Below, piece by piece: positions 33,452 through 53,456 of a DNA stretch of 64,000 nt. The notes beneath the pieces are model-generated. The model was not told where the DNA came from and made no database searches. It saw only the letters and a program-made list of their open reading frames with translations. The position numbers were made by a program, and so were the translations under genes. Within the stretch, counting starts at the first letter, position 1; each line of letters starts with the position of its first letter. This DNA comes from Sandarakinorhabdus limnophila DSM 17366 (GTDB lineage Bacteria > Pseudomonadota > Alphaproteobacteria > Sphingomonadales > Sphingomonadaceae), in contig NZ_ATVO01000003.1 of assembly GCF_000420765.1 (NCBI RefSeq), positions 496,001 to 560,000 of the forward strand, written 5' to 3'.

Positions 33452-33503
33452 CACCTGCGCCTAGCGTGTGGCGCTGCCCAAGGGAAGGCGCTAGCCTTGC
33501 TGC

Positions 33504-34694: not shown

Positions 34695-34702
34695 TTTCTC
34701 CG

Positions 34703-34730
34703 TTGCAAAGCGCCGCCGCCGCGCTATATC
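34703..34730 (+). promoter_or_regulatory. Promoter of tRNA-Ala
   Basis: TTGCAA (34703-34708), 16 bases, then TATATC (34725-34730), 36 bases before the tRNA 5' end. Confidence 0.5.
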
Positions 34731-34766
34731 GGCGGCCCTCCCGAACGCGGGATCAGGATTTGGTGC

Positions 34767-34842
34767 GGGGCAGTAGCTCAGATGGGAGAGCGCAGCAATC
34801 GCACTGCTGAGGTCAGGGGTTCGATCCCCCTCTGCTCCACCA
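34767..34842 (+). tRNA. tRNA-Ala (CGC)
   Basis: Acceptor halves GGGGCAG and CTGCTCC pair with one G-U. The anticodon stem CAGCA/TGCTG encloses the loop ATCGCAC, anticodon CGC for alanine. The T-arm AGGGGTTCGATCCCCCT is normal, and the CCA is encoded at 34840-34842. Confidence 0.97.
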
Positions 34843-34998
34843 TTTCCTTCCCGCGCTGATCGATCCCGCAGCCCGGTTCAGCCCCCCGCGTAGATACCCC
34901 CATGCCGATGGCCGGGCTGTGCACCCGTAAAAGCCACAACGCGCAGTTCCGGCACAAAGCCCTATCCTGTCTCTCATCCACTATTCGCGAGGCAACAC

Positions 34999-35163
34999 AT
35001 GCTTGTTCAGACCATCATCGTTCTCATCGTCGTTGGCGTCCTGCTCTGGCTGGTCAACAACAAGATCCCGATGGACGGCACCATCAAGTCGATCATCAAC
35101 ATCGTCGTGATCATCGCCGTCATCGTCTGGCTGCTGCGCATCTTCGGCATCGTGAGCTTCTGA
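34999..35163 (+). CDS. Thivi_2564-family small membrane protein
   Basis: A 54-residue protein, MLVQTIIVLIVVGVLLWLVN, then NKIPMDGTIKSIIN and a second span ending LLRIFGIVSF. The motif WLVNxxIPMDGxIKxIxN between two hydrophobic helices is that of the small Thivi_2564 membrane family, of unknown function. A GAGG lies seven bases before the ATG. It is just downstream of tRNA-Ala with 156 bases between, in which nothing else is seen. Confidence 0.85.
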   Translation: MLVQTIIVLIVVGVLLWLVNNKIPMDGTIKSIINIVVIIAVIVWLLRIFGIVSF

Positions 35164-35229
35164 TCCGCCCCAACGCCCGCGACGTGCTGCCGCTTGGCGG
35201 GTTGATGCCCGCGCGCTAAACCCGCCGGT

Positions 35230-35976
35230 GTGAACACCGCTGCAACCCTCGTTCTTGCCGTCCTCTCGATGGCCGCCATCATCGCCGTCCGTTACCTTGC
35301 GGTTTCGGGCGGCTTTGCGTGGCTCACACAGCGACGTGGCGTGCAGGCCGGGCCAGCCGATCCGGCCAAGCGCCAGCGCCAGATCAGCGCCGAAATCCGC
35401 TGGTCGCTGATCTCCGCCGTCATCTATGCCATCCCCGCCGGCCTCGCCATCGAAGCCTGGCGCGGCTGGGGCCTCACGCAGATCATGGTGAGCGTGGATG
35501 GCCCCTTGCAGGCCGCCTGGGTACCCGTCTCAATCCTCGTCTATCTTTTCCTGCACGACGGCTGGTTCTACTGGACGCACCGCTGGATGCACCTGCCCCG
35601 CCTGTTCAAGGCCGCCCACGCCGTTCACCACGCCAGCCGGCCGCCCACCGCCTGGGCCGCGATGAGCTTCCACCCGTGGGAAGCCATCTCCGGCGCCATC
35701 CTCATCCCGGCGCTGATGTTCATCATCCCCATCCACATCGGCGCGCTGGGCATGGTGATGCTGATCGCCACCATCATGGGCGTCACCAACCACATGGGCT
35801 GGGAAATGTTCCCCCAATCCTGGATCAACGGCTGGTTCGGCCGCCATTTCATAAGCGCCTCCCACCACGAAGCCCACCACCGCCACTACAACTGCAATTA
35901 CGGCCTCTATTTCCGCTTCTGGGACAAGCTGTGCGGCACCGATCGCGGCCTTGCCAACTGGAGCCAGCAGGCCTAA
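35230..35976 (+). CDS. Second sterol desaturase/fatty acid hydroxylase family protein
   Basis: A 248-residue membrane protein from a GTG at 35230, with histidine boxes FYWTHRWMH, AHAVHHASRPPTAWAAMSFH and the last box SASHHEAHHRHYNCNYGLYF. Four to five hydrophobic helices surround them. The di-iron ligands are complete, so it should be an active lipid hydroxylase/desaturase of unknown substrate. It is only distantly similar to the member at 29.4 kb (different box spacing), so the two are not a recent duplication. It ends just before the thiC riboswitch. Confidence 0.9.
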   Translation: MNTAATLVLAVLSMAAIIAVRYLAVSGGFAWLTQRRGVQAGPADPAKRQRQISAEIRWSLISAVIYAIPAGLAIEAWRGWGLTQIMVSVDGPLQAAWVPVSILVYLFLHDGWFYWTHRWMHLPRLFKAAHAVHHASRPPTAWAAMSFHPWEAISGAILIPALMFIIPIHIGALGMVMLIATIMGVTNHMGWEMFPQSWINGWFGRHFISASHHEAHHRHYNCNYGLYFRFWDKLCGTDRGLANWSQQA

Positions 35977-35985
35977 TCCAGACCC

Positions 35986-36078
35986 ATTCCCCGGGGGGCC
36001 AGCGCGACTGGCTGAGAGGTGGGCTGATGGCCCCGACCCGCTGAACCTGATCCGGTTGACCCCGGCGGAGGGAGGGAG
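35986..36078 (+). promoter_or_regulatory. TPP riboswitch upstream of thiC
   Basis: The conserved thi-box blocks are seen in order: GGGGGGCC (35993-36000), the CTGAGA pyrimidine-sensor loop (36012-36017), ACCCGCTGAACCTGATCCGG (36036-36055) and the 3' GCGGAGGGAGGG segment (36065-36076). This element binds thiamine diphosphate and lowers expression of thiC, here probably by masking the ribosome-binding site or by early termination; 66 bases separate it from the start codon. The usual AATACC of the pyrophosphate helix reads GACCCC here, a mild departure. Confidence 0.93.
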
Positions 36079-36083
36079 CGTGA

Positions 36084-37988
<1,905 letters not shown>

Positions 37989-38021
37989 AAGGAGACCTCC
38001 GGCCAGCAGGAGTGCCCCCTG

Positions 38022-38065
38022 CCCTGCAGTGAATGCTGGCCTGCGCCAGCATGACAGGGTTTTTT
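38022..38065 (+). terminator. Rho-independent terminator of thiC
   Basis: A hairpin with ATGCTGGC/GCCAGCAT arms (38033-38040 and 38045-38052) and outer CCCTG/CAGGG pairing is followed by six T (38060-38065). Confidence 0.85.
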
Positions 38066-38079
38066 AGAGGCCAAGGGCT

Positions 38080-38119
38080 GCCCGAAAACAAACGGGTGCA
38101 GTGGTCACCCCTGCCTGCC
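38080..38119 (+). repeat. Dispersed palindromic repeat, copy A
   Basis: Contains the core AAAACAAACGGGTGCAG shared with copies at 38815, 50452 and, inverted, 50181. The hairpin part here is imperfect (GCAGTGGTCACCCCTGC). It lies in the 160-base gap between the thiC terminator and a small gene. Confidence 0.7.
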
Positions 38120-38225
38120 GCGAAGAACGAAGTTGACGCCCGCGCTGGCGGCGGTGATGCAGCGATAGCGGCCGTGCGTTCGGCATTTTCAGCGCAGTGG
38201 TGATTTGGGCAGGGGAGTGTGCGCG

Positions 38226-38405
38226 GTGGGCGAGAAGTTCGAGCGGCACAAGCAGGCGTGGACGAGCGATGAAGTGCAGAAACTGCACACGCTGGCGAAG
38301 AAGGGCATGCCGCTGCGGGCCATCGCCAAGGCGCTGACCCGCAGTGAGGAATCGGTGAAGGCGCGGGCGAAGGAAGACAAATTGGGCATTGTCAGCCTGC
38401 GGTAA
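38226..38405 (+). CDS. Small helix-turn-helix (Myb/SANT-like) protein
   Basis: A 59-residue basic protein starting at the GTG at 38226 (MGEKFERHKQAWTSDEVQKL), with AGGGGAG eight bases upstream. The body KLHTLAKKGMPLRAIAKALT followed by RSEESVKARAKEDKLG has the three-helix pattern of Myb/SANT-like or resolvase-type HTH, where AIAKALxRSEESVKARA would be the recognition part. It is probably a nucleic-acid binding protein. Upstream TTG (38205) and GTG (38217) are less well placed. Function unknown. Confidence 0.75.
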   Translation: MGEKFERHKQAWTSDEVQKLHTLAKKGMPLRAIAKALTRSEESVKARAKEDKLGIVSLR

Positions 38406-38508
38406 CCGCACGGCAGCAAGGCGGCGCGCTTTCAGTCTGGTGCGCCGCCGATCAGTTTCATCACCGCGCCGAAACCACCGACAGACCAATCAGCAGTGAA
38501 GGGGAAAT

Positions 38509-38604
38509 TCACTTGGTCGAAGGGTTGGCCTGGATCACCTTCTTGGGGGCTTCCTTCTTGGGCTTGCGGACTTCCTTGTTGGATTTTGCCTGACCCTTGG
38601 CCAT
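38509..38604 (-). CDS. Short lysine-rich conserved protein
   Basis: A 31-residue protein from the ATG at 38604 with AGGAGA seven bases upstream: MAKGQAKSNKEVRKPKKEAP then KKVIQANPSTK. The MAKGQxxSNKExRKPKK pattern matches a family of tiny basic alphaproteobacterial proteins of unknown role. It is strongly charged and unlikely to fold alone; nucleic-acid or ribosome binding would fit but is a guess. Confidence 0.7.
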   Translation of the reverse strand: MAKGQAKSNKEVRKPKKEAPKKVIQANPSTK

Positions 38605-38814
38605 CGTCTGTCTCCTGAACGGACCCATGCCGTCGGCTGACTATGCGACCTTCCCGGCCCGGCGTCACCGGTCAATTGTTGATATGGGCGTGGTGAAACC
38701 GGCGAAATGCGTCAAAACTGTCAAATAAAATGCACAAAGTGAAATGGCCCGCACGTGTGGCGAGGTCTTGTTGGCTCTTTCAAAACAGGATGGCAGGCGC
38801 ACACTGCAGGGGCA

Positions 38815-38846
38815 GCCCAAAAACAAACGGGTGCAGGGGCGAGTCC
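38815..38846 (+). repeat. Dispersed palindromic repeat, copy B (half-site at a gene break)
   Basis: Contains GCCCAAAAACAAACGGGTGC followed by AGGGGCGAGTCC and then stops: the expected second arm (CTGCCCGCC) is missing. The next base starts the Anbu protease remnant, so the repeat marks the break exactly. Confidence 0.75.
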
Positions 38847-39179
38847 GACACGCCATTCCTGCAGATTGGCGAGACCAAATATGGCAAGCCGGTGCTCGAT
38901 CGCATGCTCACCTATGAAACACCGATGGCGGAAGCCCTGAAGATCGCGCTGATCAGCTTCTCTGCCACCATGCGATCAAACCTGGCCGTGGGCCTGCCCG
39001 TCGATATCGCCACCATCCGCAGCGGCGTTTCCGATCTGGAGCTGATCCACCCGATCGAGGTGGATGATGAATATTACAGCGAACTCAAAAACCGCTGGAG
39101 CAACGCCCTGCGCGCTGCTGCCGCCGCCATTCCGCTGCCGCAATATGCCAGCCAGCCGGAACAGGAATTGCGCAGTTAG
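38847..39179 (+). pseudogene. C-terminal remnant of an Anbu/COG3484 proteasome-type protease
   Basis: 110 codons remain: DTPFLQIGETKYGKPVLDRM and LTYETPMAEALKIALISFSA and TMRSNLAVGLPVDIATIRSG lead to a normal stop. This is the C-terminal half of the bacterial proteasome-like (Anbu) Ntn-hydrolase, about 245 residues in the family. The N-terminal threonine nucleophile and first half are gone; the frame continues upstream into repeat B and beyond without a sensible start. The gene is therefore inactive. Its stop overlaps the stop of the MFS gene by two bases, tail to tail. Confidence 0.82.
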
Positions 39180-40396
39180 GCAGGCGCCAGTTGTGCGTTC
39201 GGCTTCGCCCGCGTCACCCACAACATCAGCGCCAGCACCAGCCCCAAGACACTCACCCCGGTCATCGCCAGATAGCCCAGCGCGGCATCGCCATCGGCCA
39301 CCAGCGCATCATAAAGATAACCGGAAACGAAGGTGGTAAAGGCCTGCGCTGGGGCCGAGGCCAGCGCCATGTAGATCATCTGCGCCGTGGCTGTCTGTTC
39401 ATCGCCCATCATCTGGTTGACCAGCCGCATCGCGCCCAGGAACACCGCCGCAAAGGTGCCGGCGTGCAGCACCTGCAGCGGCCACAGCGCCCATTCCGGC
39501 GGCAGGAAGGCCATCGCCGTCCAGCGGATGATGCAGGCGACAGCGCCCACCAGGATCAGGGTTTCCGAAGCAAATTTGCTCGACCAGCCGCCAAGGAACA
39601 TCAGGAACAGCACTTCCACCGCCACCCCTACCGACCAGAGATTGCCCGCCACCGTCTGCGAAATCGCCTGATCCTTGGTCCAGATCAGCACGCCGAAACC
39701 ATAGAAATAGCCGTGGGTGGCCTGCAAGATGCCAGCCGCAAAGATCAGCAGCGCAAAGCGGCGGTTCTTCAGCAGGCCAACGCCCTCCTTCAGGCGGCCA
39801 ATGAAATCGCCTTCCTCATTGCCCCGCACGGGCTCCTTCGGCATCACGAATGCCGCACCGATCAGCGCAATCGACACGCCCAACAGCCAGGCCCAGATCG
39901 CCCATGGCCCGAAATCCGTCACCAGCGCGCCCACGCTGGACGAACCGACAATGAACGCTGCCGACGCCAGGCCACGCGCGAAGCCGTAGGGCGGCAGGCC
40001 CGATTTCGTCAGCCGGATCAAGGCCGCCTCCACGGCCGGCAGCAGGCCCCAGAAGCCGACATCCATCAGCAGGATGATGGCAAACACCGGCCAGAAGCCT
40101 TCAACGAACCAGAGCGCACCAAAACCAGCGCTAAGCAGGAAGGCGAACAGAAACAGCGGCGCGCGCTTGTCGCTTTGGCCTGCGGCCCAGGCGGCAGTGA
40201 GCGGCCCGACCACAATGCGCGACAAGCCACCAACCGTGAGCACCAGGCTGATCTGCACGCCGGTGAAGCCCTGCGCCGCATCCAGCCATGTCGGCAGATG
40301 CGGGATCAACGCGCCAAAGCCGGCAAAAAACAGGCACGACAGGATGGTGGCGCGTACGCCGTTGGAACTCAGCTGTGCGGGGGGTGATTCGGTCAT
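39176..40396 (-). CDS. MFS transporter, phenylpropionate-permease (PPP/HcaT-like) type
   Basis: A 406-residue membrane protein with about twelve hydrophobic helices. The N-terminal half contains FFAGFGALIPHLPTWLDAAQ and GGLSRIVVGPLTAAWAAGQS, and the loop after helix 2 carries the MFS-type basic pattern (QSDKRAPLF). Similarity is best with the MFS_1_like family that includes E. coli HcaT, a possible 3-phenylpropionate/H+ symporter; many sphingomonad members have unknown substrates. It starts ATG at 40396, divergent from the SDR gene. Confidence 0.88.
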   Translation of the reverse strand: MTESPPAQLSSNGVRATILSCLFFAGFGALIPHLPTWLDAAQGFTGVQISLVLTVGGLSRIVVGPLTAAWAAGQSDKRAPLFLFAFLLSAGFGALWFVEGFWPVFAIILLMDVGFWGLLPAVEAALIRLTKSGLPPYGFARGLASAAFIVGSSSVGALVTDFGPWAIWAWLLGVSIALIGAAFVMPKEPVRGNEEGDFIGRLKEGVGLLKNRRFALLIFAAGILQATHGYFYGFGVLIWTKDQAISQTVAGNLWSVGVAVEVLFLMFLGGWSSKFASETLILVGAVACIIRWTAMAFLPPEWALWPLQVLHAGTFAAVFLGAMRLVNQMMGDEQTATAQMIYMALASAPAQAFTTFVSGYLYDALVADGDAALGYLAMTGVSVLGLVLALMLWVTRAKPNAQLAPA

Positions 40397-40500
40397 GGCG
40401 TTTGATGGCAGGCTGTCATCACCCTGTCACTCTTGGCGCGTGGACAGATGGTGCAGCAGCGGCCTAGATTGCGTCAAACAACCACTGGGGAGACTTCGCC

Positions 40501-41277
40501 ATGGCCCTTCCGGCGCTTTTTGATCTGACCGGGCAGACCGCCCTCATCACCGGTTCCAGCCGCGGGATCGGCAAGGCCATTGCCCACCGCATGGCCGAAC
40601 ATGGCGCCAACGTGGTGATCTCCAGCCGCAAGGCCGATGCCTGCGAAGCCGCACGGGACGAGATCAACGCCGCCGTGGGCCGCGAAGCCGCCATCAGCGT
40701 GCCGGCCAACATTGCATCCAAGGAAAGTCTGCAAGCGCTGGTTGATGCCACCGTCGCCAAATGGGGCCAGATCGATCACCTGGTCTGCAACGCCGCCAGC
40801 AACCCCTATTATGGCCCGCAGGGCGGCATTTCTGATGAAGCCTTCACCAAGATCCTGCAAAACAACATCGTTTCGAACCACTGGCTGATCAGCATGGTCG
40901 CCCCGGCGATGCGTGCCCGCAAGGATGGCACCATCACCATCGTCAGCAGCATCGGCGGACTGCGCGGCAGCACCATCATCGGTGCCTATTGCATCTCGAA
41001 GGCGGCCGACATGCAATTGGCCCGCAACCTCGCCTGTGAATATGGGCCCGACAATGTGCGCGTGAATTGCATCGCGCCCGGCCTAATCAAGACCGATTTT
41101 GCCAAGGCGTTGTGGGATGATGCCGAAACCCTGAAGCGCTCCACCGCCACCGCGCCGTTGAAGCGCATCGGTGTGCCCGATGAGATCGCCGGCATGGCCG
41201 TGTTCCTCGCCGGCAAGGCCGGGGCCTTCACGACGGGGCAGAATTTCGTGATTGATGGCGGGGTGACGGCGGCCTGA
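40501..41277 (+). CDS. Short-chain dehydrogenase/reductase
   Basis: A 258-residue classical SDR. The cofactor motif is TGSSRGIGKA (TGxxxGIG), followed by the structural NAAS motif, catalytic Ser in IVSSIGG, the YCISK active-site Tyr/Lys pair (YxxxK), and the C-terminal NFVIDGGVTAA. Arg after the first glycine motif (ISSRKADA) suggests NADP(H). Similar proteins are called DHRS4-like. The ATG has GGGGAGA upstream. The substrate is unknown. Confidence 0.93.
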   Translation: MALPALFDLTGQTALITGSSRGIGKAIAHRMAEHGANVVISSRKADACEAARDEINAAVGREAAISVPANIASKESLQALVDATVAKWGQIDHLVCNAASNPYYGPQGGISDEAFTKILQNNIVSNHWLISMVAPAMRARKDGTITIVSSIGGLRGSTIIGAYCISKAADMQLARNLACEYGPDNVRVNCIAPGLIKTDFAKALWDDAETLKRSTATAPLKRIGVPDEIAGMAVFLAGKAGAFTTGQNFVIDGGVTAA

Positions 41278-41286
41278 ACGCGGCGC

Positions 41287-42255
41287 CTAGCGCCTGTCGT
41301 AATAGATCTGCCCCATCAGCCCGAACAGCCAAATGGCATCGGGCGGAGTCGGGTCGTTGTTATATTCGCGATACAAGGTGTCGACGTTGACCGCGATGCG
41401 CTCAGCGTCCTTCCACGTCGCATAACGCCCCAGCCCGATGTCGCGCGCGGCGTCCTCCGCCGACAGGCCGGCGGCGTGGCGGGCGCGGGCTTCGTGATCG
41501 ATATAAGCCAGATAATCGGCCACCTCGCGCACCCCGGCCTTGTCGGTGAGGGGGCCGTGGCCCGGCACGATCACGTCCACATCCATGGCGATGATGCGCT
41601 CGCAGGCGGCGATCCAGTTCGATACCGGCCCGGCCCACATGATTGGCGTGCCTTCGATGAACAAGATGTCGCCGGTGAACACCGCCTTGGCTTGCGGCAC
41701 ATGCACCAGCACATCGCCGGCAGTGTGCGCCGGGCCAACCTCGATCAGGTCAACCGCGCGGCCGCCCACGTCCAATTGGGTCTGGCTACAGAAGGTGCGT
41801 GTCGGCGCGCGCTCCTGCACGCCGGCAAAATCGAACGGCGCAAACACCTCGGCGAAATAGCGACCGGCCACTCCCATCTGCCCGGCCGCGCCTGCCGCCT
41901 TCAACTGCGCCAGCAATGCCGGTGAAAACGCCTCCATCTCCCGTGCCGACGCTTCCGACGCGATGATGTCCGCTTTCTCCAGCAGATGATTGCCGTGGGT
42001 GTGATCGCCATTGGCATGGGTGTTGACCACCTGGCCGATGCTCGCTGCGCCAAAGCCCGTCGCGCGCTCCATGCCGGCCAGCATCTCGGCGGTCAGCTGC
42101 GTGTCGAACAATGTGTCCACGAGCGCCGCTGCGCCGTCACCGGGCCGCCCTTCCACGATCAGCCCGGCGTTGGACCAGCCCCAGCCGCCATCGGGCTGCA
42201 GCCAGGCGAACAGGCCGTCGCCGATTTCGTGCAGGCCCCGGGTGAAGGCCGTCAT
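41287..42255 (-). CDS. Metallo-beta-lactamase-fold hydrolase
   Basis: A 322-residue protein with the MBL motif NTHANGDHTHGNHLLEKADI: the first His is kept, the third position is Asn (HxNxDH), and the next metal ligands are in GPAHTAGDVLVHVPQAKAVF and VIVPGHGPLTDKAG. The HANGDH variation is common in a subgroup of alphaproteobacterial MBL proteins linked to quinone-dependent or thioesterase-like reactions; the substrate is unknown. It ends ten bases from the SDR stop and overlaps the SIMPL gene by four bases. Confidence 0.9.
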   Translation of the reverse strand: MTAFTRGLHEIGDGLFAWLQPDGGWGWSNAGLIVEGRPGDGAAALVDTLFDTQLTAEMLAGMERATGFGAASIGQVVNTHANGDHTHGNHLLEKADIIASEASAREMEAFSPALLAQLKAAGAAGQMGVAGRYFAEVFAPFDFAGVQERAPTRTFCSQTQLDVGGRAVDLIEVGPAHTAGDVLVHVPQAKAVFTGDILFIEGTPIMWAGPVSNWIAACERIIAMDVDVIVPGHGPLTDKAGVREVADYLAYIDHEARARHAAGLSAEDAARDIGLGRYATWKDAERIAVNVDTLYREYNNDPTPPDAIWLFGLMGQIYYDRR

Positions 42256-43031
42256 GGCTGGCCTTCCAGCTCAAAGCTGATCGTCACCTGCGCAGACAAT
42301 GACAATTCGCCCGGCTGCACCGGAGGCGCCGCGCCGGCTTCGGCCATCGCCATGCGCATCATCGGCCGCGGGCCGGGTTCCGGAGCGCCGGCGCCTTCGC
42401 TGATGCTGGCAATGCGCTTCACCTTCAGGCCGGCAGCATTGGCATAAAGCTCCGCCCTTGCCCGGGCCTTGGCAACCGCGGCGGTGCGCGCTCCGTCCAG
42501 CGCGGCGTCCGAATTGGCCAGGGTGAACTCCGGCCCCTGCACCTCGTTGGCGCCGGCCTTGATCGCCACGTCGATCAGCTTGCCGGCATCGCCCAACTTC
42601 ATGGTGCGCAGGCTGATGCTGTTTCGGGCCTGATAGCCGGTGAGGATCGGCGACTGGTTCGGTTCGTACCGATATTGCGGATTGAGGCTGAGCCCGGTGG
42701 TCTGCACGTCGCGATCGGCGACGCCAGCGGCTTTCAGGGCTGCAAGCACAGCGTTCATGCGGGTCGCGTTGGCCGCCATCGCCTCGGCCGCCGTGGCCGC
42801 CGCGGTGAGCACGCCGGCCGTCATCCGCAATTGGTCGGGCGCCCGCGCCACATCGGCACTGGCGGTAATGGTGAGCATGGCCGGCATCGCGGCCGAACGG
42901 TGCAACATGAAGCGCATGGGTCCATCAGCGGGCAATGACGGCAGACCCGGTGGCGGCACTTGCATCCGATCCTGGGCAGCGACGGGGGAAGCGGCAGCCA
43001 ACAAAAGCAGCAGAATGGCAGAAAAGCGCAT
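42252..43031 (-). CDS. SIMPL-domain (DUF541) secreted protein
   Basis: A 259-residue protein with signal peptide MRFSAILLLLLAAASPVAAQ. The mature part is one SIMPL domain: TITASADVARAPDQLRMTAG, VQTTGLSLNPQYRYEP, VDVAIKAGANEVQGPEFTLA-type segment, and the C-terminal SLSAQVTISFELEGQP. SIMPL proteins are periplasmic, often oligomeric and of uncertain role; Brucella BP26 is a known example. Its stop overlaps the MBL gene start (ATGA). Confidence 0.92.
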   Translation of the reverse strand: MRFSAILLLLLAAASPVAAQDRMQVPPPGLPSLPADGPMRFMLHRSAAMPAMLTITASADVARAPDQLRMTAGVLTAAATAAEAMAANATRMNAVLAALKAAGVADRDVQTTGLSLNPQYRYEPNQSPILTGYQARNSISLRTMKLGDAGKLIDVAIKAGANEVQGPEFTLANSDAALDGARTAAVAKARARAELYANAAGLKVKRIASISEGAGAPEPGPRPMMRMAMAEAGAAPPVQPGELSLSAQVTISFELEGQP

Positions 43032-43100
43032 GGATCAGCTCCTGGTTCGCGATGCCGGCATGATGGCGCGACTGGCGGCCGCCGTCACTCCTGCAAATCG

Positions 43101-43120
43101 TCGCCGCATCCGTGCGGCGA
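43101..43120. promoter_or_regulatory. Inverted repeat in the SIMPL/efflux divergent region
   Basis: TCGCCGCA and TGCGGCGA are separated by four bases (TCCG). The 8-bp stem lies midway between the divergent SIMPL and RND genes and could be an operator or leader hairpin; no T-run follows. Confidence 0.35.
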
Positions 43121-43184
43121 AATACCGTCGAGTAGCGCTCAAATTTGCCTTTTTGCTGCCATCGACTTCGTTTAAGGAGTGCTC

Positions 43185-43213
43185 TTGCGTGCGGTGATGT
43201 ATTTCGATAATAC
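43185..43213 (+). promoter_or_regulatory. Promoter of the RND efflux operon
   Basis: TTGCGT (43185-43190), 17 bases, then TAATAC (43208-43213). The start would be about 17-20 bases before the adaptor ATG, leaving room for GAGGAA. Confidence 0.55.
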
Positions 43214-43236
43214 ACCCTCGCAGAGGAACTATGTCA

Positions 43237-44430
43237 ATGAACGCCCAACAGCCTGTCCCTTCACCAGCCGCGGCGGAGGTGTATAACTTCCCACCTGCCG
43301 AAGGCGACGCGCCGTCAAAGCGCAACCGCTGGCTGAAGCCGGGCCTGATCGCGCTGGCGATCGCGCTGGCCGGGGCGGCTGCGTGGCAGGCGTTCGGCCC
43401 CGCCGCAGCCCCGCCCGCCGCGCCTGCCAGCAACCTGCCGGAAGTCACCGTGCTGGTGCCCGGCACCACCATGCTGGCTGATGCGATCACCGCGCCTGGC
43501 AGCATTGCCGCCAAGCGCGATGCCGCCGTGGGTGTGCAGGGCGAAGGTGGTCGCGTGGTGCGCGTGATGGTGGAACCCGGCCAGCGCGTTGGCGCCGGTC
43601 AGGTGTTGGCCCAGATCGATCGCCAGGTGCAAACCCAGGAAATCGCCCAGCTTTCTGCCAGCGTTCGCCAGGCCGAAGCCGAAGCCCGGCTGGCGCAGGC
43701 CAATCTGGCCCGCGCCGAAAGCCTGGTGGCCAAGGGCTTCATCAGCCGTGCCGACATCGATCAACGCCTTGCCACCCGCGATGGCGCACAGGCCCGCGTT
43801 GGCGTGGCCCGCGCCCAGTTGGGTGCGGCCCGCGAACGGGCTGACCGGCTCGACGTGCGGGCGCCCGCTGCTGGTCTGATCCTGTCGCGCAATGTCGAAA
43901 CCGGCCAGGTGGTCGGCCCCGGCACCGGCGCGCTGTTCCGGCTGGCGGAAGGCAATGCGCTGGAAATGCGTGCGCAGGTCGCCGAACAGGATCTCGCCCG
44001 GCTGAAGGTGGGCATGTCTGCTGTCGTCACCCCGGTGGGCGCGACCGAAGGCTTCAAGGGCAAAGTGTGGCTGATCGACCCGGTGATCGATCCGGCCAAT
44101 CGCCAGGGCATCGTGCGCATCCAACTTGAATATACGCCCGGCCTGCGGGTTGGCGCCTTTGCCCGCGCCCGCATCGAAGGCGGCGAAACCACGCGTCCGC
44201 TGCTGCCGCAATCCGCGGTGCTGGCCGATGCGAACGGCAATTTCGTCTATGTACTGGGCAAAGACAACAAGGTGGAGCGCCGCAGCATCGAAGTGGGCGC
44301 GATCAGCGATGCCGGCGTCGGTGTTGCTTCGGGCCTCACCGGCGCGGAACGGGTGGTGGCCAGTGCGGGCGCCTTCCTGAAGCCGGGCGATACGATCAAG
44401 CCGGTGCTGGCCGCCCCCGCCACGCGCTGA
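43237..44430 (+). CDS. RND efflux periplasmic adaptor (HlyD/AcrA family)
   Basis: The protein bridges an inner-membrane RND pump to an outer-membrane TolC-type channel. The 397-residue product has one N-terminal membrane segment (LIALAIALAGAAAWQAFGP), a barrel-sandwich/lipoyl domain starting GSIAAKRDAAVGVQGEGGRV, a helical hairpin (SASVRQAEAEARLAQANLAR), the lipoyl return AAGLILSRNVETGQVVGPGT and a membrane-proximal domain with DGQ/IDPVIDPANRQGIVRI. AGAGGAA lies nine bases before the ATG at 43237; a second ATG at 43231 is too close to it. Twenty-one bases separate it from the pump gene. No TolC-type gene is near. Confidence 0.94.
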   Translation: MNAQQPVPSPAAAEVYNFPPAEGDAPSKRNRWLKPGLIALAIALAGAAAWQAFGPAAAPPAAPASNLPEVTVLVPGTTMLADAITAPGSIAAKRDAAVGVQGEGGRVVRVMVEPGQRVGAGQVLAQIDRQVQTQEIAQLSASVRQAEAEARLAQANLARAESLVAKGFISRADIDQRLATRDGAQARVGVARAQLGAARERADRLDVRAPAAGLILSRNVETGQVVGPGTGALFRLAEGNALEMRAQVAEQDLARLKVGMSAVVTPVGATEGFKGKVWLIDPVIDPANRQGIVRIQLEYTPGLRVGAFARARIEGGETTRPLLPQSAVLADANGNFVYVLGKDNKVERRSIEVGAISDAGVGVASGLTGAERVVASAGAFLKPGDTIKPVLAAPATR

Positions 44431-44451
44431 TTTCGACAGGACACGCCCAAA

Positions 44452-47400
44452 ATGCGCAATATTTCCGCCTGGTCGATCAAGAATCCGGTACCGCCGCTGG
44501 TGCTGTTCGCACTGCTGATGCTGGCCGGCATCCTTTCGTTCCGGGCGATGGACATCAACAACCAGCCCGATATCGAATTCCCGGGCGCGATGATCATGGT
44601 GGCGCAGCCGGGCGCTGCCCCGGAAGAGCTGGAAAACCAGGTCACGCAGCGGGTTGAAGCAGCGGTGCGCAACATCACCGGTGTCGATGAAGTGAACAGC
44701 ACGGTTTCCGAAGGCAGCAGCCGCACCATGGTGCAGTTTGCCATCGGCACGCCGATTGATCGCGCCGTCAACGATGTGCGCGACGCCATTGCCAATATCC
44801 GTTCCGATCTGCCGCAGGGCATCCTGCAGCCGCAGGTGAGCCGGCTCGACATTGCCGGCGGGCCGATTGCCTATTTCGCGGTTGAATCCACGGCGATGAC
44901 CCTGGAAGAACTCAGCTGGTTCGTCGACAACACCGTGGCCAAGCGCCTGCTGGGCATCCCCGGCATGGCTCAGGTGCGCCGTTCGGGTGGGGTCAGCCGC
45001 GAAATCCGGGTGATCCTCGATCCCGATCGCATGCAGGCCTATGGCGTCACGGCAAGCCAGGTGAACGCCCAACTGCGTCAGGTGAACCTGAATGCCGCCG
45101 GTGGCCGCGCCGAAATCGCCGGCGCCGAACAATCGGTTCGCGTGATGGGCAATGCCCGCAACGCCGTGGGCCTCGGCGAAACCCAGATCAATCTTGGCCA
45201 GGGGCGCAGCATCCGCCTTGCCGATATCGCCGATGTTCGCGACGGCTATGCAGAGCAGCGCAGCATTTCCAAGCTTAATGGCCGCCAGGTGCTCAGCTTC
45301 TCGATGGCCAAGGCCAAAGGCTCCTCCGACGTCACGGTGTATGATGCGGCGGTCAAAGAAATCGATGCCCTGCGCACGCAGTATCCCAAGGTTTCGTTCA
45401 AGCTGATTTTCACCTCGGTGGAATATACCAAGAACCAGTATCACGGCGCCATCGACGCGATGATCGAAGGCGCGATCCTCGCCGTGCTGGTGGTGTGGCT
45501 GTTCCTGCGCGATTGGCGCGCCACGGTGATTTCGGCGCTGGCCATCCCGCTGTCGGCCATTCCCACCTTCTGGTTCCTCGATGTCTGGCTGGGCTTCAGC
45601 CTCAACCAGCTTTCGCTTCTCGCGCTCAGCCTGGTGGCGGGCGTGCTGGTCGATGATGCCATCGTGGAAATCGAAAACATCGTGCGCCACATGCGCATGG
45701 GCAAATCCGCCTGGCAGGCCAGCATGGACGCAGCCGACGAGATCGGCCTGGCCGTGGTTGCCACCACCATGTCGATTGTCGCGGTGTTCCTGCCGGTGGC
45801 GCTGATGCCCGGCATTTCTGGCCAGTTCTTCAAGAATTTCGGCGCAACCGTTGCGGTCTCCGTCCTGATCAGCCTTGCCGTCGCCCGCCTCATCACGCCG
45901 ATGCTCGCCGCCTTCTTCCTGAAGAGCGAGGGCCAGGCCGAACATGGCACCGGCAAGTGGGTCGATGTCTATATGGGTATCCTGAACTGGGCGCTGGCCA
46001 ACCGCATGAAGACCGTGTTCGGCATTGGCGGCGTCGCGCTGGGGCTGACCATCGTGCTGTTTGCCACCCTGCCGATGACCTTCCAGCCCGACGTCGACAA
46101 TGATGACTCCCAGGTGACCATCGCCCTCCCGCCTGGCGTCACGCTGCCACAAACCGAAGCCATCGTTGAAAAGGCTGTGGCCGTGCTGGAAAGCTCGCCC
46201 GATCTGGCGCTGGCCTTTGCCGATGTCGATGTCGGCGGCGGCAACATCTATCTCACGCTGAAGAAAAGCCGGACGATGCACCGCATCGATTGGGAACGTG
46301 CAATGGCGCCCAAGCTGGCTGCCATTCCCGATGCCCGCATCGGCTTTTCAGCCCAGGGCGATGGCCCGCCCGGCGGCCGCCCGATCAGTGTCACACTCAC
46401 CGGCAATGATCCCATCCTGCTCGACAGCACCGCCCGCAAGGTGGTGGAAGAAATGCGCGCGATGCCAGAACTGCGCCAAGCCCGGATCGATGGCGGCCTG
46501 CAACGGCCGGAAATCACCATCAAGCCGCGGCTTGATCTTGCCGCCGAACTGGGTGTGACCACGGCTGCGCTGTCGGAAACCATCCGCATCGCCACGCTAG
46601 GTGATATCGATCAGAATGTTGCCAAGTTCAGCGTGGCTGATCGCCAGATCCCGATCCGCGTGGCGCTGGCCGAATCCTCGCGGCGCAATCTTTCCACGAT
46701 CGAAAACCTGCCGGTGCCCACCGCGCGCGGCGGCACCGTGCCACTGAAGGTGGTCGCCGAAATCAGCTTTGGCACCGGCCCCACTGAAATCCGCCGCTTC
46801 AACCAGCAGCGCCGCATCCTGATGGGTGCCGATCTTGCCCCAGGCCTGCTGTCTGGCGATGTGCAGACCAAGGTGAACCTGCTGCCGAGCCTGAAGAACC
46901 TGCCGCCTGGCGTCGAAAAGGTGCAGCTGGGCATGCAGAAGTGGTTGGGCGAACTCGTGTCAAACTTCATTCTGGCGGTGATCGCAGGTGTGGTGATGGT
47001 GTTTGCCGTGCTGGTGCTGCTGTACAAGCGGGTGTTGCCGCCGTTCGTCAACATGATGTCGCTGTTGCTGGCGCCGCTGGGTGGCCTGATCGCCCTTGGG
47101 CTCACCGGCAATGCCATCTCCATGCCGGTGTTTATCGGCCTGCTGATGCTGCTCGGCATTGTCGCCAAGAACTCCATTCTTCTGGTCGACATGGCCATCG
47201 AAGAAATGGAAAAGGGCGTTCCCAAGCTGGAAGCGATCCTTGAGGCCGGCCACAAGCGCGTGCAGCCGATCGTGATGACCACGGTCGCCATGGTAGCGGG
47301 CATGATGCCGGTGGCACTGGCGCTGGGTGGTGACGGTTCCTGGCGCGCACCGATGGGCATCGTGGTGATCGGCGGCCTGATTGTTTCGACCGCTCTCACC

Positions 47401-47529
47401 CTGATCATCGTGCCGGCCGGCTTCTCCATCGCCGTTTCGGTGGAAGAATGGCTGGCGCCGCGCATGAAGCGGTGGTTCACCAACAACGAAGGGGCTGCTA
47501 AGCTTCCCGGCGCAACGCCTGCGGAGTGA
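44452..47529 (+). CDS. RND-family efflux pump permease
   Basis: A 1025-residue proton-driven efflux transporter of the AcrB/HAE-1 type with twelve hydrophobic helices and two large periplasmic loops. The N-terminus is NISAWSIKNPVPPLVLFALL. Helix 4 carries the proton relay VAGVLVDDAIVEIENIVRHM (two Asp) and the C-terminal half has LLMLLGIVAKNSILLVDMAI with the conserved Lys. Substrate cannot be inferred; it is more distant from AcrB than MexF-type pumps are. The final residues GAAKLPGATPAE are unconserved. It forms a two-gene operon with the adaptor and lacks an adjacent repressor. Confidence 0.95.
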   Translation: MRNISAWSIKNPVPPLVLFALLMLAGILSFRAMDINNQPDIEFPGAMIMVAQPGAAPEELENQVTQRVEAAVRNITGVDEVNSTVSEGSSRTMVQFAIGTPIDRAVNDVRDAIANIRSDLPQGILQPQVSRLDIAGGPIAYFAVESTAMTLEELSWFVDNTVAKRLLGIPGMAQVRRSGGVSREIRVILDPDRMQAYGVTASQVNAQLRQVNLNAAGGRAEIAGAEQSVRVMGNARNAVGLGETQINLGQGRSIRLADIADVRDGYAEQRSISKLNGRQVLSFSMAKAKGSSDVTVYDAAVKEIDALRTQYPKVSFKLIFTSVEYTKNQYHGAIDAMIEGAILAVLVVWLFLRDWRATVISALAIPLSAIPTFWFLDVWLGFSLNQLSLLALSLVAGVLVDDAIVEIENIVRHMRMGKSAWQASMDAADEIGLAVVATTMSIVAVFLPVALMPGISGQFFKNFGATVAVSVLISLAVARLITPMLAAFFLKSEGQAEHGTGKWVDVYMGILNWALANRMKTVFGIGGVALGLTIVLFATLPMTFQPDVDNDDSQVTIALPPGVTLPQTEAIVEKAVAVLESSPDLALAFADVDVGGGNIYLTLKKSRTMHRIDWERAMAPKLAAIPDARIGFSAQGDGPPGGRPISVTLTGNDPILLDSTARKVVEEMRAMPELRQARIDGGLQRPEITIKPRLDLAAELGVTTAALSETIRIATLGDIDQNVAKFSVADRQIPIRVALAESSRRNLSTIENLPVPTARGGTVPLKVVAEISFGTGPTEIRRFNQQRRILMGADLAPGLLSGDVQTKVNLLPSLKNLPPGVEKVQLGMQKWLGELVSNFILAVIAGVVMVFAVLVLLYKRVLPPFVNMMSLLLAPLGGLIALGLTGNAISMPVFIGLLMLLGIVAKNSILLVDMAIEEMEKGVPKLEAILEAGHKRVQPIVMTTVAMVAGMMPVALALGGDGSWRAPMGIVVIGGLIVSTALTLIIVPAGFSIAVSVEEWLAPRMKRWFTNNEGAAKLPGATPAE

Positions 47530-47572
47530 TCACGCCCTGAACAGCCTGCTGCCGGAATCGCCCTTTCACCGG

Positions 47573-48781
47573 ATGCGCCTGATGGCGACGCTGCTGCTGG
47601 CAGCGATGGCCGTGATTTTCATCGTCTGCCTGATGTTTCCCAAGGCGCATCCGGCTGTGCCGTGGGTGATGGCGTTCAGTGAAGCGGCGATGGTGGGCGG
47701 CCTTGCCGACTGGTTCGCCGTCACCGCGCTGTTCCGTCATCCGCTGGGTCTGCCGATTCCGCACACCGCCATCATCCCGCAACAGAAGGACCGGCTGGGC
47801 GAAACCCTGGCCCAGTTCCTGAAAGACAATTTCCTGAAACCCCAGGTCGTCGCCCGCCGTCTGGACGATGCCGATCTGGCCGGCGTGTTGGCGCGCTGGC
47901 TGGCCGCGCCGCCGGCGGAAGGCCCGAACCGCAAGAAGGGCATTGCCCCGCTGGTTGGCCAGCTGATCGACGGGCTGGATGATCCCGCCATTGCCAAGGC
48001 GGTGGAAGATCTGGCCCGCGGCCGGCTGCAATCCATGCAATTGTCCCCCATCGTTGCCGATGCGGTGGACACGCTGGTGGCGGGAGGCCGACACGAACTG
48101 CTGATCGATGCCGCTGTCGAATGGGGGCTGGCGACGATCGTCGATGAAGCCCCCAACATCCGCGGCAAGGTGACAGAGCGCACCAACTGGCTGCTGCGCC
48201 TCGCCGGCGCCGATGAAAGCCTGTCGGATACGATGATCAGTTCGGTGCAGCGCCTGTTGGTAGAGATCAAGCATGATCCCTGGCACCCGGTGCGGCAGCG
48301 CCTGGTCGATGCCTTCAAGCAGTGGACATTCGATTTGCGCCACTTCCCCGAAAGCCAGGCGCGGGTGGAAGGCTTCAAGGATGATCTGCTCGCCAATCCG
48401 GCGATGGGCAGCTGGGTGCAGGGCCTGTGGGATGCGGCGCGCGGCGCGCTGGCCACCAGCCTGAAACAACCCGGCGAGAACAGGCTGGGCGGCGCGCTGG
48501 TGGCGCTTGGCAACCGCATCGAAGGTGACGACGCGTTGAAAGCGGGGCTGAACACCGCCCTGCGCCGCGCCGTTGCTGGCCTCGCCAAGACCCATGGCGA
48601 CGAGATCGTGAAGCTGGTTTCCGAAACCGTGCGCAGCTGGGATGCTGATACCGTCACCGACAAGGTGGAACAGGCGGTTGGCCGCGATCTGCAGTTCATC
48701 CGCATCAACGGCACGCTGATCGGGGGTTGCATCGGCGTGGTCATCTATGCCAGCGCGCGCTTTGTCCTCCTGCCACACTGA
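47573..48781 (+). CDS. DUF445 family membrane-associated protein
   Basis: A 402-residue protein with one hydrophobic segment at each end and a long helical body between. The DUF445 signature GGLADWFAVTALFRHPLGLP and IPHTAIIPQQKDRLGETLAQ, then FLKDNFLKPQVVARRL, is at about residues 43-98. The final segment LIGGCIGVVIYASARFVLL anchors the C-terminus. DUF445 (YjiN-like) proteins have no established role. The ATG at 47573 is the first usable start in frame, 43 bases after the pump gene, so it may be cotranscribed. Confidence 0.93.
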   Translation: MRLMATLLLAAMAVIFIVCLMFPKAHPAVPWVMAFSEAAMVGGLADWFAVTALFRHPLGLPIPHTAIIPQQKDRLGETLAQFLKDNFLKPQVVARRLDDADLAGVLARWLAAPPAEGPNRKKGIAPLVGQLIDGLDDPAIAKAVEDLARGRLQSMQLSPIVADAVDTLVAGGRHELLIDAAVEWGLATIVDEAPNIRGKVTERTNWLLRLAGADESLSDTMISSVQRLLVEIKHDPWHPVRQRLVDAFKQWTFDLRHFPESQARVEGFKDDLLANPAMGSWVQGLWDAARGALATSLKQPGENRLGGALVALGNRIEGDDALKAGLNTALRRAVAGLAKTHGDEIVKLVSETVRSWDADTVTDKVEQAVGRDLQFIRINGTLIGGCIGVVIYASARFVLLPH

Positions 48782-48788
48782 AGCTCCC

Positions 48789-49352
48789 ATGCTGAACCGC
48801 CAGCCCACCCTCACCCATCCCGCCGTCACGTTGCGCCCCGCCACCGCAGACGACTGGCCGGCGCTGTTTGCCGCCGCCCATGATCCCGGCATCTGGGAAG
48901 GCCACCCGGCGCATGATCGCTGGCAGGAACCGGTGTTCAGCGCCTTCTTCGACGATGGCCTGGCCAGCGGCGGCATGCTGGTCGCCGCAGAACCGGCAAC
49001 CGGCGTCCTCATCGGTTCCTCGCGCTTTGACTTGGGCCGAGCCGAAGCCGGTGAAGTGGAAGTGGGCTGGACCTTCCTGGTGCGCCGCCACTGGGGCAGC
49101 CGCACCAATCACATCATGAAGGCACTCATGGTCGGCCACGCGCTGCAGAGCGTGGAACGGGTGATCTTCCTGATCGGCGAAACCAACATTCGCAGTCGCA
49201 CCGCCATTGAACGGATCGGTGCGACGCTGACCGACCGGCAGACGACCGCCCAACTGTCCACCGGGCCGGTCATCCACCTCTTCTACAGCATCGACCGCGC
49301 GGGCTTCGGCACCGGGCCGCTCTTCCCACTATGGGAACAACGGATCAGCTGA
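48789..49352 (+). CDS. GNAT-family N-acetyltransferase
   Basis: A 187-residue RimJ/RimL-like acetyltransferase. It begins MLNRQPTLTHPAVTLRPATA, with VTLRPATADDWPALFAAAHD as the GNAT motif C/N-terminal strand, then EVEVGWTFLVRRHWGSRTNH and VGHALQSVERVIFLIGETNI, and SRTAIERIGATL for motif B. The acetyl-CoA loop (RRHWGSRTNH) replaces the canonical RxxGxG/A by an asparagine-rich variant. Substrate unknown. ATG at 48789, eight bases after DUF445. Its stop overlaps the M1 remnant tail to tail by eight bases. Confidence 0.9.
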   Translation: MLNRQPTLTHPAVTLRPATADDWPALFAAAHDPGIWEGHPAHDRWQEPVFSAFFDDGLASGGMLVAAEPATGVLIGSSRFDLGRAEAGEVEVGWTFLVRRHWGSRTNHIMKALMVGHALQSVERVIFLIGETNIRSRTAIERIGATLTDRQTTAQLSTGPVIHLFYSIDRAGFGTGPLFPLWEQRIS

Positions 49353-50178
49353 CATCCACCAGATTGTCGTCCGAATTGCGGTCGACATATTTGTTGTAGG
49401 GATCGATCCCGGCAAAGGCCGGCTTGGCCTTGCTGATCAGCACCAGCACCTGTTTGCCCGATTGCACCGGCAGCAGCGTCATCGCCAGCACATCGGTCCG
49501 GCTGAACGCCCCCTGCCCCGGCTTGGCGGTGAAAAGGCCAACGTCGATCGTGTCGGCCAGCGGCGCCGCCTTTTCCACACCCTTGCCATCGGCATAGAGC
49601 TTGGCGGCGTCCACCGTCAGCCGCGTTTCCCAGCGGCCATCGGCCAGTTTCCGGGTCGTCGCCGCCGTCGCCTTCAGATCATAAAGGGTGATGCGCTCGA
49701 ACAGGTCGCTCACCAGCTGCCGTTCGGCCTCATTGCGGGCCAGCGACTTGTAGCCATCCACCAGTGTCGTGGAGGTGAGATAAGGCTGGCTCTTGAACTT
49801 GTGGGTGGCGAGCAGGCCGGACAGCATGGCGTTGACCCGATCCTCGCCCAGCCGGTCGGCCAGAAGATACATCACCAGGCTACCCTTGCGGTAATGGATA
49901 TAGCCCTGGTTCTCGACCCGGTTCAGCGGCAGTTCCTCGATGATCTCACCGCCGCGGTTGCGCAGGTAGTTATCCAGTTCGTACTTCAGGAAGCGGCGGA
50001 TCTTGTCCTCGCCATAGAGCTGCTTCATCACCATCAGCGCCGAATATTGCGCCATGGTCTCCACGAACAACGTGCCGCCCTGCATCTCCGCGCTGACGAT
50101 CTGGTGGCCCCAATATTGGTGGGCGACCTCGTGCGCGGTTACATAGGTGACGTAATCGATCTTTTCGGGATCGTCATT
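49345..50178 (-). pseudogene. C-terminal remnant of an M1-family aminopeptidase
   Basis: 277 codons of homology remain, starting NDDPEKIDYVTYVTAHEVAH, where HEVAH is the HExxH zinc motif, followed by QYWGHQIVSAEMQGGTLFVE with the second-shell Glu downstream and KGSLVMYLLADRLGEDRV. Related intact proteins are large (about 1100-1200 residues, with an ABC-permease-like membrane half and then the M1 domain), so three quarters of the gene is gone. The break coincides with repeat C. An open frame runs on to 50235 only by translating the repeat (AGAGTESLPA). The substrate-binding N-terminal domain is absent, so activity is not expected. Confidence 0.85.
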
Positions 50179-50180
50179 GG

Positions 50181-50212
50181 CCGGCAGGGACTCAGTCCCT
50201 GCACCCGCGTTG
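50181..50212 (-). repeat. Dispersed palindromic repeat, copy C (inverted)
   Basis: GCAGGGAC (50184-50191), TCA, GTCCCTGC (50195-50202), then ACCCGCGTT. On the minus strand it reads GGGTGCAGGGACTGAGTCCC, matching copy D on the plus strand. It abuts the M1 aminopeptidase remnant. Confidence 0.8.
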
Positions 50213-50220
50213 CGGCCAGC

Positions 50221-50412
50221 CTTCTTGAGCGGCAAATCATCGACCGCGCCTACTTCGAGGAGCTAGAGCGAATAAGGCTCAACGACCAGTTCATATCAGT
50301 CGCAAGCATGCAGCGTTACATCGACCCGCCGGACTTCGCGCCGATGGAAAATGAGCTACGGACTTATTGGGTGAGGTTGGGACGCTTTCTTGTGCCGACC
50401 CTTAACCGCTGA
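50221..50412 (+). pseudogene. C-terminal fragment of an unrecognised, foreign-looking gene
   Basis: A 63-codon open frame without a start: LLERQIIDRAYFEELERIRL, NDQFISVASMQRYIDPPDFA, PMENELRTYWVRLGRFLVPT and LNR, then TGA. Codon use differs sharply from neighbours: CTA, CGA, ATA, AGG and TCA occur close together, codons otherwise rare here. I do not recognise the family. It is bounded by repeats C and D in inverted orientation. It is either the tail of a horizontally acquired gene or part of a mobile cassette. Confidence 0.5.
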
Positions 50413-50451
50413 TTCCACCGACTGGGGGCACGGTCCCGCCGTCCAGCGAAC

Positions 50452-50492
50452 GCGAAAACATACGGGTGCAGGGACTGCGTCCCTGCCCGCCG
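50452..50492 (+). repeat. Dispersed palindromic repeat, copy D (complete)
   Basis: The most complete copy: CGAAAACATACGGGTGCAG followed by the perfect hairpin GCAGGGAC (50468-50475), TGC, GTCCCTGC (50479-50486) and CCGCCGG. It lies just after the end of trmL (its 3' side), so it may also act as a transcript end or stabiliser. Confidence 0.82.
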
Positions 50493-50506
50493 GAGGCCCC
50501 TTTCTC

Positions 50507-50959
50507 CTACCCCGGCAGCCCGCCCGTCTGCCGCAGGGCCTCCCCCACCGCCAGCCCGGCCGACATGGCGAGGTTCAGCGAGCGCACGTCGCGTTTCATC
50601 GGCAGGCGGATGCGGCCCTCGCAGGCGGCGTGGACATGCGGTGGCGCACCGGCGCTTTCCTTGCCGAACAGCAGCACGTCGTCGGGGCGGAAGACGAAAT
50701 CATAGGCCGAAACGCTGCCCTTGGTAGTGAGCAGCACCAACCGCGCGGCACCAATGCTGGCGTGGAAGGCGGGCCAGTCGGCGTGGCGGGTGATCGCGAC
50801 GTGATCGATATAGTCCATCGCCGTGCGGCGGACGCGGGCATCGTCCCACAGGAAACCGAGCGGTTCGATCAGATCGACGGGCACGTCCAGGCAGGCGCCG
50901 AGGCGCAGGACGGCGCCGACATTGCCGGCAATTTCCGGCTCAAACAGCGCAATGCGCAT
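50507..50959 (-). CDS. trmL: tRNA (cytidine/uridine34-2'-O)-methyltransferase TrmL
   Basis: TrmL methylates the ribose of the wobble nucleotide in tRNA-Leu. The 150-residue SPOUT protein begins MRIALFEPEIAGNVGAVLRL (motif 1), and has the knot motifs DVLLFGKESAGAPPHVHAAC (motif 2) and PMKRDVRSLNLAMSAGLAVG (motif 3). In typical TrmL motif 3 reads RSLNLSxAxAI; here SLNLAMSAG is a mild change. It lies two bases after the aminotransferase stop on the same strand, so the two are probably cotranscribed. Confidence 0.93.
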   Translation of the reverse strand: MRIALFEPEIAGNVGAVLRLGACLDVPVDLIEPLGFLWDDARVRRTAMDYIDHVAITRHADWPAFHASIGAARLVLLTTKGSVSAYDFVFRPDDVLLFGKESAGAPPHVHAACEGRIRLPMKRDVRSLNLAMSAGLAVGEALRQTGGLPG

Positions 50960-50961
50960 TC

Positions 50962-53144
<2,183 letters not shown>

Positions 53145-53309
53145 GTACGCCCCCGGCCTGCTGCACTGCACAGGCCTTTTGTTGTTCTGCTGCCAGACTG
53201 GGAAAAAACGCCCTCCTTTGCAATACCTAATCGGGCTTGCCTGTATTTCCGCAGCGCAACACGGCGCGCCAAAAGGGCCAAAGCTGCAATAACCATTAGG
53301 GGAAATACC

Positions 53310-53456
53310 ATGCCGGCGACCCTGGCAAAATCAGGCGGCCTGTTTCTGGCCATGATCATCGCGCCGTTTGGCATGGCCCAAGCGCAAGACACCGCCTTTG
53401 CGGTGCACATGGCCTCGCCGTGCCTGCCGCCCATATTGTCGCCACCGGCGCGCTGA
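53310..53456 (+). pseudogene. Orphan signal-peptide-encoding fragment
   Basis: A 48-codon frame with GGGGAA six bases upstream encodes MPATLAKSGGLFLAMIIAPF then GMAQAQDTAFAVH, a standard signal peptide with cleavage site. Shortly after, at about 53411, the sequence switches to a P-type ATPase in another frame, so the rest of the secreted protein is lost. The preceding 165 bases (53145-53309) hold no gene I can see. Confidence 0.5.

Follow-up and report, generated by a model that had tools for sequence, protein, structure and literature searches.

The GTAG- and CGTC-tagged repetitive extragenic palindromes (REPs) and bacterial interspersed mosaic elements (BIMEs) are short, high-copy palindromes found beside the 3′ ends of convergent or tandem genes. 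In the sections of the survey by Di Nocera et al. (2013, PMC3733652) on which we draw, REP dimers of several families consist mostly of two unlike units, and most CGTC families occur in alphaproteobacteria, apparently without a dedicated transposase. We analyzed a 64,000-nt stretch of the Sandarakinorhabdus limnophila DSM 17366 genome (G000:C3:496001–560000, hereafter the window; coordinates without a contig prefix are window positions). In it, an earlier sequence-only reading had noted four copies of a hairpin repeat, here called A to D, at the broken ends of two conserved genes: one for Anbu, a proteasome-type peptidase, and one for an ABC-permease/M1 aminopeptidase fusion (M1). The repeat, the gene breaks and the exact coincidence between them were confirmed as real. 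Comparison of the aligned genomes showed both breaks to be deletions in the lineage of this strain, one end of each lying within a hairpin or directly against it.

Among known patterns, the GTAG/CGTC REPs come closest to the repeat. As described in the same sections (PMC3733652), they share with it gene-3′-end placement, high copy number and dimers. Our family differs from them in its conserved GCCTCCGGCGGG foot, its T-rich tail and its stem, GCAGGGAC, with a loop of 2–3 bases, and its members pair tail to tail across spacers of 12–123 bases. Neither a GTAG nor a CGTC tag was present at the stem foot in the consensus of 27 copies. The general REP traits were all found, namely a short palindrome, many dispersed extragenic copies, 3′-end placement and facing dimers. 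Among papers retrieved from open-licence PubMed Central (PMC), no title or abstract opening described the repeat, which is a new family within the known REP-like gene-end hairpin type.

The gene breaks were compared across 19 genomes of the genus Sandarakinorhabdus, our own (G000; 2.61 Mb, 11 contigs) and 18 congeners; for the repeat, 12 genomes of other genera were scanned as well. The other genomes are labeled G001, G002 and so on, with G011 as the main close relative. Window positions 31581–38838, 38839–50187 and 50511–53412 matched G011, which carries 6.5 and 7.0 kb of extra DNA between these segments. The 5′ part of Anbu lies in the first extra piece, along with CP_ATPgrasp, Alpha-E and transglutaminase-like genes. 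The second carries genes for an ABC ATPase and an M20 peptidase as well as the remainder of the ABC-permease/M1 gene; the missing half of the fusion gene matched ABC2_membrane_3 at 27.6 bits, under its cut-off of 31.6. A search of 1.18 Mb of our genome for the missing DNA returned nothing but one 84-base match at 76%. At least part of the DNA missing at B was found in each of G002, G009, G010, G014 and G015. Several outgroups also carried most of the first missing piece and, from the second, the portion with the M1 operon, and both losses are therefore derived.

The truncations themselves were not seen in the relatives, where both genes, if matched, lay in long open frames. This was the case for Anbu in 17 of the 18 congeners, the other being a 75% complete genome without a match; in our genome 112 residues are left, and these are its sole Anbu match. 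M1 had a long open frame in 11 of the 18 congeners, from 725 codons (on a 4.2-kb contig) to 1407, with one of the 11 matches cut by a contig end. Our genome retains 277 residues of M1, and this fragment maps inside a 1249-codon open frame of G011 and G002.

Copy B had been said to end exactly where the Anbu fragment begins, and it does: BLAST homology to the G011 hairpin site stops at 38838, and Anbu homology begins at 38839. The covariance-model match of copy B extends past this junction into Anbu sequence. Its counterpart in G011 is a complete hairpin (G011:C1:456482, 73.3 bits), and the hairpin is also complete in G002, with the loop GAG and the arm GTCCC. Junction B runs via AGTCC into Anbu, which reads CAGTCCGACACG there in G011, giving a 5-base overlap. 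The contact of copy C with the M1 fragment was likewise borne out, at about 50183–50187. Here, the M1 sequence ATTGGC goes directly into the hairpin, whose far side enters an orphan open reading frame (ORF) fragment, and homology with M1 amounts to about GGC (~3 bp). With junction homology of just 5 bp and ~3 bp, the repeat therefore lies on one side only of each deletion. To the right of the M1 operon, G010 has a + hairpin and a − hairpin 1.2 kb apart, and copy C may therefore be the remains of such a + hairpin.

These junctions sort out the original proposal that recombination or REP-associated transposition at the repeats destroyed both genes. Both genes were broken by deletions that end, on one side, within a copy or directly against it, so the location stood; neither repeat-to-repeat recombination nor REP transposition did. 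Recombination between two copies fails at B and C, as the Anbu and M1 sides are repeat-free. The perfect or partial stem claimed for the copies was seen as a perfect GCAGGGAC-nnn-GTCCCTGC in C and D; copy A is degenerate, and copy B is one arm short because the deletion junction falls inside it. The features are listed in Table 1.

Table 1. Genes, gene fragments and hairpin copies around the two deletion junctions (window positions).
Feature	Position	Strand	Evidence
thiC, intact, left of copies A and B	36144..37988	+	Pfam ThiC_Rad_SAM 613.7 bits
Second palindrome GTCATGCTGGCGCAGGCCAGCAT, resembles CGTC-tagged REP	38033..38055	-	Pattern matches
Copy A, degenerate hairpin, T-rich tail	38076..38128	-	Covariance model 34.8 bits; partner at G011:C1:455784
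Copy B, truncated hairpin, deletion junction 38838/38839	38811..38854	-	Covariance model 19.2 bits
Anbu (proteasome-type peptidase) 3′ fragment	38839..39179	+	96–97% amino acid identity to C-terminal part of Anbu in G011/G002/G010
Block between the two deletions, collinear with G011	38839..50187	.	95.3% identity
ABC-permease/M1 aminopeptidase fusion gene, 3′ fragment	49345..50187	-	PF01433; 97% amino acid identity
Copy C, hairpin stripped of both normal flanks, at M1 junction	50183..50205	+	Covariance model 28.7 bits
Orphan 3′ ORF fragment between copies C and D	50206..50412	+	No DNA match in 7 congeners
Copy D, intact hairpin behind trmL-like gene	50446..50499	-	Covariance model 73.9 bits
trmL-like SpoU methylase, intact; 3′ end bears copy D	50507..50959	-	PF00588

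The orphan fragment had no DNA match in seven congeners, and its 68 searched codons were unmatched in plasmids, PHROGs and Pfam, with phage records not searched. Seven nucleotides separate the stop codon of the trmL-like gene from copy D, and G014 has a hairpin at the matching place.

All four copies, noted at 38080, 38815, 50181 (inverted) and 50452, were present by covariance model. Matches to the short 10-base core within the window did not exceed chance (8 at ≤1 mismatch, compared with 6.5 expected), and an exact core at 58407 had no covariance-model match. The longer ACGGGTGCAGGGAC gave 31 genome matches at ≤1 mismatch and none in the reversed control. One of these 31 was without a locus, and L016, L017 and L023 were dropped from the remaining 30 loci to give an alignment of 27 copies. 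Read in its own direction, the consensus is a stop codon, a few bases, GCCTCCGGCGGG, CAGGGAC-nnn-GTCCCTG and CACCCGTTTGTTTT. The GCCTCCGGCGGG foot is thus followed by a covarying hairpin and then ACCCGTTTGTTTT, and a second tail form, ACCC(A/G)CTTTCGTTTT, also occurs. Conservation reaches beyond the hairpin: across 55 columns, the mean identity per column is 83%. Compensatory variation is seen at one stem pair among the 27 copies (A-U 16, U-A 8, C-G 1, G-C 1, G-U 1); the stem covariation score was equaled by 0 of 500 shuffles, and all slid versions scored lower. Among facing tail-to-tail pairs within 250 bp, 10 could be typed, leaving out the untypable C/D pair, and nine of these combined type 1 with type 2. 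Facing pairs often stand between convergent genes. Opposite-strand and partial matches were merged into sites (14 rows gave 10 sites, and 41 rows gave 27). An Rfam search of window positions 37900–50700 returned a single unrelated match far under its gathering score.

Position was scored for 37 sites in 1.18 Mb of our genome, using gene calls from our own crude codon-usage script. Thirty-six sites lay outside called genes. The placement was convergent for 25, tandem for nine and divergent intergenic for two, and the last, copy C, fell within a called ORF; convergent DNA makes up 1.2% of the compared span. The nearest upstream gene was on the same strand at 30 sites, and 24 sites were ≤60 nt from its stop (raw counts with no random control). 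Enrichment of copies at gene breaks, which the sequence-only reading expected, was not found: 27 of 30 inspected loci have a normal or near-normal gene-end flank, the exceptions being B, C and L023, the last taken as a chance match.

Some intrinsic (Rho-independent) terminators consist of repeated words, such as the Neisseria uptake sequences, in the part of PMC2267715 considered here. As in the terminators outlined there, a GC hairpin stands just past the stop codon, a TTTGTTTT-like tail follows the stem, and stem changes are compensatory. Unlike those terminators, our family is conserved in sequence beyond the hairpin, and a role in termination or uptake is putative. Taken together, the repeat is most likely a genus-specific REP-like hairpin family held just downstream of genes, where it would act as a transcript 3′-end hairpin, either a terminator or an mRNA stabiliser.

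The family was found in 19 of 19 genus genomes and in none of the 12 genomes of other genera. Covariance-model matches numbered 69 in our genome, in line with the dispersed family supposed at first, 79 in G011 and 120 in G010, and the congeners ranged from 1 (G003) to 120 (G010). These values are matches, not exact copy numbers, as ≤150 candidates per genome were scored and a symmetric site may count twice. The exact repeat pattern occurred in 62 stretches of named genomes, 59 of them in records named Sandarakinorhabdus or Sphingomonadales bacterium. The remaining three stretches (L187, L189, L231) were in pond metagenome bins named Oxalobacteraceae or Asticcacaulis, and are perhaps mis-binned Sandarakinorhabdus contigs. 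A same-place partner was found in G011 for 30 of 35 compared copies, with five lacking one, and the unshared sites whose sequence was inspected were not clean insertions.

To relate hairpins to deletions, we counted junctions in 935 kb aligned to G011 at which G011 had ≥300 bases more and G000 had <1000 bases extra (n = 38, without polarising). A family hairpin lay ≤20 bases from six of these deletion-like junctions. The expected number was 0.25 under uniform placement, 1.14 with intergenic matching (P = 0.0013) and 1.81 with matching by space type (P = 0.0035). This result is at most suggestive of a link between hairpins and deletions beyond shared location. The genome comparison shows that each of the two deletions in this lineage (~6.5 and ~7 kb) ended at a hairpin on one side and at a short microhomology within a coding gene on the other. 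The deletions took the upstream genes and left 3′ stubs of Anbu and the ABC/M1 gene. Hairpin formation during replication might conceivably have favored these end points. We consider the account as a whole, a gene-end hairpin family and two deletions ending at hairpins on one side and at microhomology on the other, to be reasonably probable.

Coincidence of place would explain the same pattern if accessory DNA is gained and lost at the gene ends of convergent operons and the hairpins merely stand there, with no role in the deletions. When all junctions were forced into convergent DNA, 6.5 of the 38 were expected near a family hairpin, and no excess remained (P = 0.65). Strong hairpins in general were not enriched either (7 of 38 junctions compared with 6.3 expected, 10-base margin), nor were they once the family was removed (3 compared with 5.1, same margin). 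The presence of a G011 partner for most copies also fits coincidence. It fits less well with a junction inside the hairpin at B and flush with it at C, with the opposite end of each deletion lying within a gene, and with six observed cases where space-type matching predicts fewer than two. Coincidence is, tentatively, a quite possible explanation. As a separate candidate, palindromes generally as deletion hot spots were ruled out, since they showed no excess at junctions.

Besides the convergent-DNA and general-hairpin results, several other findings weigh against our account. M1 had no match in seven of the 18 congeners, and its loss is for this reason not unusual. Copy C has lost sequence to its left and right and adjoins the orphan fragment, an arrangement that one simple deletion does not account for. 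Of the six hairpin junctions, B and C/D are firm losses in G000 and C3:335289 probably is one, C3:451585 is a change in G011, and two are undecided. A deletion in our genome at C3:451585 was rejected because G002 and G010 carry the state of our genome; the site was retained in the count of six. Eight G011 copies inside the compared span have no partner in our genome. With regard to the hairpin itself, the number of pairs changed on both sides (two) was equaled by 31 of 500 shuffles, and a simple terminator scan flagged nine sites, compared with 9.7 in shuffles, copy A alone among A to D.

Recombination or slippage between two facing hairpins, which would fuse into a symmetric one with loss of the interval, could apply at sites other than B and C. 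Because the core is palindromic, it is both an inverted and a direct repeat, and two head-on copies can therefore fuse. At C3:335289, our genome carries a symmetric 41-base palindrome, GCCTCCGGCGGGCAGGGGC-TCA-GCCCCTGCCCGCCGGAGGC, between two genes. In G011, an additional 1 kb separates the same gene pair; the left gene is followed by a one-sided hairpin, the right gene by no hairpin. In G002, G014 and G001, the right gene is followed by a one-sided hairpin that the right half of the palindrome matches, and each of the three carries other DNA to the left of this hairpin. In G001, a + hairpin stands ~2.1 kb to the left of the right-gene − hairpin, in the facing arrangement that fusion would require. 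Symmetric forms are rare, with eight sites in six of the 19 genus genomes. Against fusion, inspection of 2.1–2.6 kb to the left of the right-hand hairpin failed to detect the left gene in G002, G014 and G001, and therefore no genome shows both hairpins between the same two genes; at the G010 counterpart, 751 bases contained no family hairpin. C3:335289 looks like a fusion of two facing hairpins via the palindromic core, with deletion of the intervening DNA and a parent state seen in part. The opposite ends of the B and C deletions lack a second repeat, and the symmetric hairpin at C3:451585 is common to three species. As an explanation for sites other than B and C, fusion of facing hairpins is doubtful.

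Two further observations concern such sites. The DNA beside the right-hand gene of C3:335289 differs in each relative examined (G001, G002, G010, G011 and G014), three times by a gene-end hairpin, and this flank is perhaps a variable gene slot. At G000:C5:175081–175105, a single unrelated perfect palindrome, GGCCACCGCCCCGGA-tctcg-TCCGGGGCGGTGGCC, stands where G011 has a + hairpin, ~1 kb of DNA and a − hairpin.

Symmetric copies also carry private changes mirrored across their arms, at G000:C3:451585–451624 (GGTAGG/CCTACC) and G000:C5:16063–16107 (GTCTCC/GGAGAC). The G010 counterpart of the first site is mirrored too but in another form, and that of G002 contains one mismatch. Such changes resemble the template switching that makes or maintains hairpins, as presented in the portion of PMC8794818 used here. 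Unlike the case described there, selection for pairing explains the mirrored arms of our family equally well, so that either selection or strand-switch copying of one arm would account for them. A stronger proposal, that facing gene-end hairpins form a built-in deletion device, fusing into a two-way hairpin and dropping the genes between, strikes us as improbable. If true, the family would both end transcripts and steer the loss of accessory genes and operons during genome shrinkage.

Transposition by a REP-associated tyrosine transposase (RAYT) or a similar enzyme would have inserted the copies and broken the genes. High copy number, paired inverted units and genus restriction recall the REPINs that accompany RAYTs, going by the passages considered from PMC3116915 and PMC8049555. 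Unlike in those systems, no RAYT/Y1 transposase (PF01797) match was found in our genome, and one was found in only 1 of 18 congeners (the search detected the domain in 5 of 14 known genomes used as a control). Moreover, two species have most copies at the same places, and the junctions record the loss of 6.5–7 kb, not an insertion. Transposition as the cause of the gene breaks is thus very improbable. Minus-then-plus copies, which a first pattern suggested might be the ends of a recently mobile element, were ruled out as such, being gene-end hairpins that are mostly conserved in place. The 182-base pairs, whose spacer measures 72 bases, are about 76% alike, and it is possible that minus-then-plus copies were mobile units in the past. 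An assembly error joining the wrong pieces at a repeated hairpin is hardly credible, for although the junctions coincide with repeats and are known from the assembly alone, the flanking gene order on both sides agrees with G011, and B and C are repetitive on one side only, which would leave little overlap to mislead an assembler.

The GTCATGCTGGCGCAGGCCAGCAT palindrome near copy A belongs to a second family. It gave five pattern matches (four sites) in 1.18 Mb of our genome and none in the reversed control, and 10 matches in the inspected parts of G011, some on both strands of one site. A further location is G000:C4:301493.

A genus-wide REP-like family whose own genome here yielded no detectable RAYT bears on the means by which REPs of alphaproteobacteria spread and are maintained. 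Base-exact junctions from the close relatives allow one to ask whether hairpins guide deletions in genome reduction, and the loss of the Anbu operon in a single lineage is a small natural experiment.

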